A stretch of 41,249 bases of DNA from Candidatus Omnitrophota bacterium (GTDB taxonomy: Bacteria; Omnitrophota; Gorgyraeia; Zapsychrales; JANLHA01), in contig JAGLNJ010000152.1 of assembly GCA_023139575.1 (NCBI GenBank), positions 1-41,249 on the forward strand, written 5' to 3'. A model generated the notes under the pieces. That model was not told where the DNA came from and did no database searches. It worked only from the letters and a program-made list of their open reading frames with translations. Shown here piece by piece: positions 31,116-32,090 of the stretch (position 1 is the stretch's first letter; each line of letters begins with the position of its first letter). The position numbers and the translations under genes are program-made.

Positions 31116-31140
31116 ATTTTAACCAGTCGCACTTTTTAGG

Positions 31141-31149
31141 TGTTATAAT
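31141..31149 (+). promoter_or_regulatory. extended -10 promoter for B-box gene
   Basis: TG-T-TATAAT (31141-31149) is a consensus extended -10 element; no -35 box is obvious. The start near 31156 would place the three hairpins at 31172-31282 in a 160-base leader of the gene at 31320. Confidence 0.5.
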
Positions 31150-31171
31150 ACCTATTTTAACTGTTGGCTTA

Positions 31172-31282
31172 CGCCCTGTGGTCTTGCCACAGGGATACCA
31201 TTTCAAAGGGAAAGTGTGAAAACCGTAGGTTTTCAAATCAAGAAAATTCCTTTGAACGCCCTGCGCTCTTGGCGCAGGGATA
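31172..31282 (+). repeat. triple-hairpin leader with repeated CCCTG stem-loops
   Basis: Hairpin A (31174-31194) is CCCTGTGG-TCTTG-CCACAGGG. Hairpin C (31259-31279) is CCCTGCGC-TCTTG-GCGCAGGG. Both have perfect 8-bp stems, the same TCTTG loop, and the same flanks (CG before, ATA after). They are 85 bases apart and differ only by compensated stem pairs. Between them is hairpin B: outer arms TTCAAAGG (31202-31209) and CCTTTGAA (31249-31256), inner arms TGAAAACC (31217-31224) and GGTTTTCA (31228-31235). It could be a structured leader RNA for the gene at 31320 or a REP-type composite repeat. Confidence 0.65.
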
Positions 31283-31319
31283 TTTACAAATTCTCAATAA
31301 ATCATAAACGGTAAAAAAC

Positions 31320-32090
31320 ATGGATTTTTGTTACATACATGCCAGAAGAATTTCTATCGGTAAATGCTTTGTTTGCGACGTACCGCTTTGCGACGAATGT
31401 CGTGCCCTTATTGGAAGTGAGATTCATTGCCGACGTTGCGCCAAAAAAGCCGCGGCAAATATACATACTCAGGCTGCGCGTAATCCCATCGTGGCAGCTG
31501 TTTCATCTTTTATCGTCCCGGGTTTCGGCCAAGTCTATAACGGCCAGATCGGTAAAGGTATCTTTATCACGATAACCAGTTGGTTGGTCTTTCCCTGGTT
31601 ATTTGGTATTTATGATGCGTATAAAACAACAGTAAAATTAAACAAAGGCGAGCTTATGGTCAAACCTTCGCCGGGTTTGATTATGGAAGGACTCATTATC
31701 TTCATCATGATCTTAACGGGGCCGATGCTGGTCTTTTATTCTTCAAAATTTTATTATCTTTTTACGCACACAGTTTTTGATAGCTACACCATTAAAAGAA
31801 AACTGCGCACCATTTCCGATGCCGCAGAGCAATACGCCCGGGAACATAATGTATATCCCATGAAATTTTCTCAGCTTTATTTTGCCGACCCTCCTTATCT
31901 GGATACGCTTTATTGTGACGTGGAGGTGTCCGGCTATATCTATTCATGTGTATTCGGGAATGATGGCTATATGATTACCGCTATTCCTGAAGAAGATATC
32001 CTCGTCGGAAAGAAAACCTTCATGATAACCACAGGCGGCCAGTTAACCGCTGTGGCTCCAAAGCCCATTGATGTCAGGGTTATTGAATGA
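31320..32090 (+). CDS. B-box zinc finger, TM2-like and pilin-like fusion protein
   Basis: The 256-residue protein combines three parts. Residues 4-40 hold a B-box-like zinc finger (C4, H7, C16, C19, C24, C27, H36, C37, C40). Residues about 55-95 form a TM2-like segment with [21 protein letters not shown] third membrane helix (about 118-142) leads into a segment like a type II secretion pseudopilin head. That segment contains [19 protein letters not shown], then [20 protein letters not shown] and a closing GG-containing strand. The zinc finger would be cytoplasmic and the pilin-like part extracytoplasmic. No function is known for the combination. The gene has a structured leader, and its TGA overlaps the ATG of the macro-domain gene by 4 bases. 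Confidence 0.72.

Follow-up and report, generated by a model that had tools for sequence, protein, structure and literature searches.

Two small hairpins with identical loops lie directly upstream of a gene in a Candidatus Omnitrophota genome (assembly GCA_023139575.1, contig JAGLNJ010000152.1; the 41,249 nucleotides analysed are referred to as the window), and their stems differ by paired changes on both arms. The question raised by this locus is whether the hairpins form part of an RNA that regulates the gene or have another origin. The initial annotation preferred a leader RNA motif of a new kind, with two sites for a ligand or protein, and offered a REP-sandwich element as its second guess. 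Our analysis indicates with high confidence that positions 31162–31287 are instead a palindrome-associated transposable element (PATE), a non-autonomous derivative in which the left end of an IS200/IS605-family insertion sequence is fused to the right end and tnpA has been lost (Table 1). As a gene-less transposon relic with a promoter-like box on one side and a gene on the other, it would be a mobile element of an ordinary sort, and no new RNA switch need be invoked.

Table 1. Coordinates of the element, its presumed parts and the neighbouring host features in the window.
Feature	Positions	Strand	Description and basis
Whole element (probable PATE), 126 bp	31162–31287	+	Common to C172:5240-5375 at 96%; flanks unrelated on both sides
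Left cleavage/target pentamer TTAAC, presumed	31157–31161	+	Host DNA abutting the left end; presumed from flank comparison and IS200/IS605 biology
Right terminus TTTAC, presumed right cleavage site	31283–31287	+	End of homology in C60, C172, C128 and the Muricauda insertion sequence
Hairpin 1 (left-end palindrome)	31174–31194	+	CCCTGTGG-TCTTG-CCACAGGG; closing pair G-C; matches left end of the G178 tnpA element
Hairpin 2 (right-end palindrome)	31259–31279	+	CCCTGCGC-TCTTG-GCGCAGGG; closing pair C-G
Middle structure, outer stem	31202–31256	+	TTCAAAGG (31202–31209) with CCTTTGAA (31249–31256); none in the G178 left end
Middle structure, inner hairpin	31218–31234	+	GAAAACC-GTA-GGTTTTC; in G178 just 5' of the tnpA start codon
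Extended −10-like box TGTTATAAT	31141–31149	+	Host DNA outside the element, 12 bp 5' of the left end; direct reading
Downstream host gene (initially a B-box fusion)	31320–32090	+	Only a DUF5683 match, sub-threshold

The structures themselves were found where the initial annotation had placed them. Two perfect 8-bp stems with a TCTTG loop start exactly 85 bp apart, compared with a mean of 0 such stems in 200 mononucleotide shuffles of the window, and the third structure reported between them is present as an outer stem enclosing an inner hairpin. Of the "two or three" compensated inner pairs that had been described, the compensation holds for two (T-A to C-G and G-C to C-G) and there is no third. 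The region folded at -54.3 kcal/mol (z = -5.4), a value equalled by none of 200 shuffles.

A search of the same genome with the region returned a near-full-length copy on contig C172, 96% identical and located between divergently oriented genes. C136 holds a truncated copy, and C128 and C144 each hold a short copy with a single hairpin, of the same sequence as hairpin 2. The copies, among which the window copy is labelled C60, thus occupy unrelated sites, near full length in C60 and C172 and partial in the other three. Further variants on C131, C149 and C168 were recovered with a pattern search for the hairpin skeleton. Upon alignment of C60 and C172, similarity starts at TGTTGG, preceded by a short T-rich run whose last bases are AC, and ends after TTTAC; since the flanks outside these limits are unrelated, the element was delimited to 126 bp. 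No listed open reading frame of at least 80 aa overlaps it, and it is too short for a transposase gene. Palindromes lie near both termini, the distance from hairpin to terminus being 12 bp on the left and 8 bp on the right, and by inspection neither a target duplication nor terminal inverted repeats were seen in the C60 and C172 flanks. The pentamers 5' of the left ends are TTAAC (C60 and C144), TTGAC (C172) and ATAAC (C128), and C144 is without the exact TTTAC terminus. A different dispersed palindrome, of the GGATTCCCGCC...GGCGGGAATCC type, was also observed near element copies (L008:1153-1172 and L007:3150-3175).

The single-hairpin copy on C128 is informative in its composition. Its left part resembles hairpin 1 (10/12 positions) more than hairpin 2 (5/12), while its hairpin and terminus are exactly those of hairpin 2 (21/21 and 8/8), and it is therefore the product expected from deletion between direct repeats. 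Terminal-only versions arising from deletion between palindromes have been described for the HqIRS46 PATEs of Haloquadratum (PMC3119063).

The two halves of the element could each be matched to an insertion sequence that still carries a transposase gene. A protein search across 384 genomes of the phylum led to a decayed IS200 tnpA in a genome of the same class (G178:C208), where the left end is identical to hairpin 1 plus the inner hairpin at 56 of 63 positions (7e-18), the inner hairpin lies directly 5' of the tnpA ATG and a right-end hairpin, GCCCTGTGCTCTTGGCGCAAGG, follows 3' of the gene. When GTDB contigs were scanned for the hairpin together with its foot and tail sequences, three records were returned, one of them in Muricauda yonaguniensis. 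Here an intact tnpA of 159 aa is followed, 24 nt past the stop codon, by a hairpin with the terminus ATATTTAC, which together are identical to hairpin 2 and its terminus at 33 of 35 positions; a left-end hairpin is found upstream of the gene too. The encoded TnpA was assigned through NCBIfam to the IS200/IS605 transposases (8e-32) and also matches the transposase of ISHp608, the structure of which is solved (9e-15). As the left half corresponds to the left end in G178 and the right half to the right end in Muricauda, the window element can be read as the joined ends of such an insertion sequence with the gene removed. A plasmid search with the Muricauda TnpA returned distant homologues only, and an exact-pattern scan of viral contigs gave no match.

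In the genome of the window, twelve Y1_Tnp matches were found, and tnpA genes on C131 and C159 are flanked by the same hairpin type, each with an internal stop. This genome, which is 89.6% complete, yielded no intact autonomous partner having the exact ends on both sides. At its ends the C159 element has two hairpins (L040:1154-1175 and 1679-1700) whose loops are mutual reverse complements (TCTCTG versus CAGAGA), as though one palindrome had flipped. Another tnpA of this genome has a hairpin family of its own, with CCCCACCTTTCAAGGTGGGG at both ends (L038:12-31 and 521-542), and yet another has CCACGGGCTTGCCCGTGG upstream (L041:339-356).

The earlier proposal that the hairpin structure is under selection was borne out by covariation. 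Across 18 hairpin units, 94.9% of stem cells were paired and 12 were double-changed, a level reached in 0 of 500 shuffles. The closing pair is G-C in the left-end hairpins of the window, C172, G178, two G210 copies and a Draconibacterium metagenome-assembled genome (MAG), and C-G in the right-end hairpins of the window, C172, G178 and Draconibacterium. The Muricauda element has C-G at both ends, and this difference between ends is therefore a feature of a subgroup. Judged from the sequences compared, the paired changes mark left-end versus right-end palindromes and not two equivalent binding sites, and the paired stems fit selection for folded DNA recognised by TnpA, for which no RNA function is required.

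The distribution of the element outside its own genome was patchy. Searched with the element DNA, the 384 genomes of the phylum gave further matches only in G178, G210 and G211. Two-hairpin relatives without a transposase gene were found in G210, in the Draconibacterium MAG and, in large number, in the HGW-Nitrospira-1 MAG (G388; stretches L108-L127), where 1.7 Mb held 108 matches to the hairpin model and a single Y1_Tnp gene, of 304 aa, was found. Left-type and right-type hairpins in like orientation were present in 10 of 20 stretches fetched from this MAG, with copies ending in ...TTAATGAATAAGCAAGAACT (or variants) and TTCTTCAC (or close variants). Many of the matches there come as a left and a right hairpin spaced 100-280 bp apart around a variable middle part, and several contigs start about 55 bases 5' of a copy. 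The left end of the single copy on C149 (L038:4013-4063), TTTAATGAATAGCCAAGAACT, is nearly identical to the left end of the HGW-Nitrospira-1 family, which suggests exchange between phyla. A hairpin with a 17-bp stem at G042:C73 (9666-9691) was initially read as chance or a terminator; a second match on the same contig (413-465) has 17 nt of the left end in common with G178, and on that account may be a genuine terminal copy. No empty target site was found among the genomes compared, the nearest of which belong only to the same family.

A course of events consistent with these observations can be proposed from the biology of IS608 and ISDra2 (PMC6006769), from which we infer that transposition occurs in trans through single-stranded intermediates, with TTAAC and TTTAC as the cleavage sites. 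A Y1 (HUH) TnpA supplied in trans would bind both hairpins on single-stranded DNA of the lagging-strand template and cut on the left after TTAAC and on the right after TTTAC. The excised single-stranded circle would then go in beside a new TT(A/G)AC target, which would not be duplicated, and prior to insertion the site in the window would have read ...TATAATACCTATTTTAAC joined straight to AAATTCTCAATAAATC... The stems would stay paired because TnpA reads the hairpins as folded DNA, and the two inner pairs would differ because hairpin 1 descends from the left end and hairpin 2 from the right. The middle hairpin would be a descendant of the tnpA leader, and deletions running from one direct repeat to the other would have left the single-hairpin copies.

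The position of the element next to a gene was considered further. The extended −10 that had been noted just upstream is present as the box TGTTATAAT, yet no −35/−10 pair passed the scan and no −35 partner of the box was found; as a promoter it is thus unproven. A palindrome, TAGGTGTTATAATACCTA, overlaps it at 31137-31154 and is a possible operator of the downstream gene. With the box 12 bp upstream and the ATG 32 bp downstream, the element may be transcribed, and an incidental effect on the leader of the gene is possible. The same placement, and the location of C144 likewise upstream of a gene, would agree with a relic whose hairpins were co-opted here as a leader modulating the gene; we regard this as very unlikely, given that the locus is not conserved and that removal of the element leaves about 44 bp between the box and the start codon, an ordinary spacing, so that simple insertion is sufficient to account for the layout. 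We give a similarly small chance to the more specific case in which the PATE serves as a transcribed 5' leader and all three of its hairpins, that of the former tnpA leader among them, tune the gene, possibly through binding of a trans-encoded TnpA.

A second alternative is a REP/BIME of the RAYT (TnpA-REP) type, that is a domesticated transposase with dispersed REP hairpins. The hairpins are indeed intergenic and dispersed, single as well as paired, as in REP/TnpA-REP systems (PMC6006769), several Y1_Tnp genes occur in the genome of the window, and the HGW-Nitrospira-1 MAG combines its 108 model matches with only one Y1_Tnp match. However, the GT[AG]G guide is absent from the hairpin foot, the feet being TACG and AACG on the + strand with none on the - strand, and the hairpin-flanked transposases are of the IS200 type (NF033573) with a YIENQ-like end and not YIxxNP. 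Moreover, the C131 protein scored 30 bits against the REP_Tyr_transpos cut-off of 80, and the element has two distinct, defined ends with a terminal TTTAC. A classical REP was rejected, as neither a GT[AG]G foot nor a flanking TnpA-REP gene was found, and REP-type origin is highly improbable overall. The REP-sandwich guess, a mobile element, came close.

The preferred idea of the initial annotation, a cis-acting leader RNA that controls the downstream gene as a riboswitch or as tandem hairpins bound by protein, could draw on the promoter-like −10, the sense orientation directly 5' of the gene and the strong fold, but is left with almost no likelihood by the copies at unrelated loci, one of them between divergent genes, by ends that are transposon ends, by a search of the window against Rfam that returned just one tRNA at gathering score and no RNA family for the hairpins, and by the search of related genomes that the annotation had called for, in which the hairpin model matched none of six same-family genomes although four of these hold a good homologue of the gene, with upstream regions that by inspection are without the hairpins.

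Read as a PATE, the element can be placed among known systems. PATEs of Haloquadratum walsbyi such as HqIRS46 (PMC3119063) are likewise short and transposase-less, with direct near-terminal palindromes, IS605-type-related ends, no target duplication and terminal-only forms produced by deletion between palindromes; the window element differs in sequence and host, in having ends that match IS200-type tnpA elements and in having kept the inner hairpin from the leader of tnpA. With the IS200/IS605 elements IS608 and ISDra2 it shares a subterminal hairpin of about 21 nt at either end, a TT(A/G)AC-like left flank and a TTTAC-like right end, and an HUH-Y1 TnpA adjoins matching hairpins in G178, Muricauda, C159 and C131. 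It differs from these in being without tnpA and tnpB and in that its transposition is presumed. A bacterial ends-only IS605 derivative has also been reported as a PATE-like sequence in Halanaerobium hydrogeniformans (PMC7290912), which unlike the window element is about 271 nt long, keeps part of tnpB and was reported in one copy.

The hairpins with paired changes within one locus can be explained without an RNA regulator, as the two ends of a single mobile element, and the case cautions against taking such structures in MAGs for riboswitch-like leaders. The same ends were found in the genome of the window, in other genomes of the class, in Bacteroidota and, with about a hundred model matches, in a Nitrospira MAG, making this family a usable case for the spread of ends-only IS200/IS605 elements.
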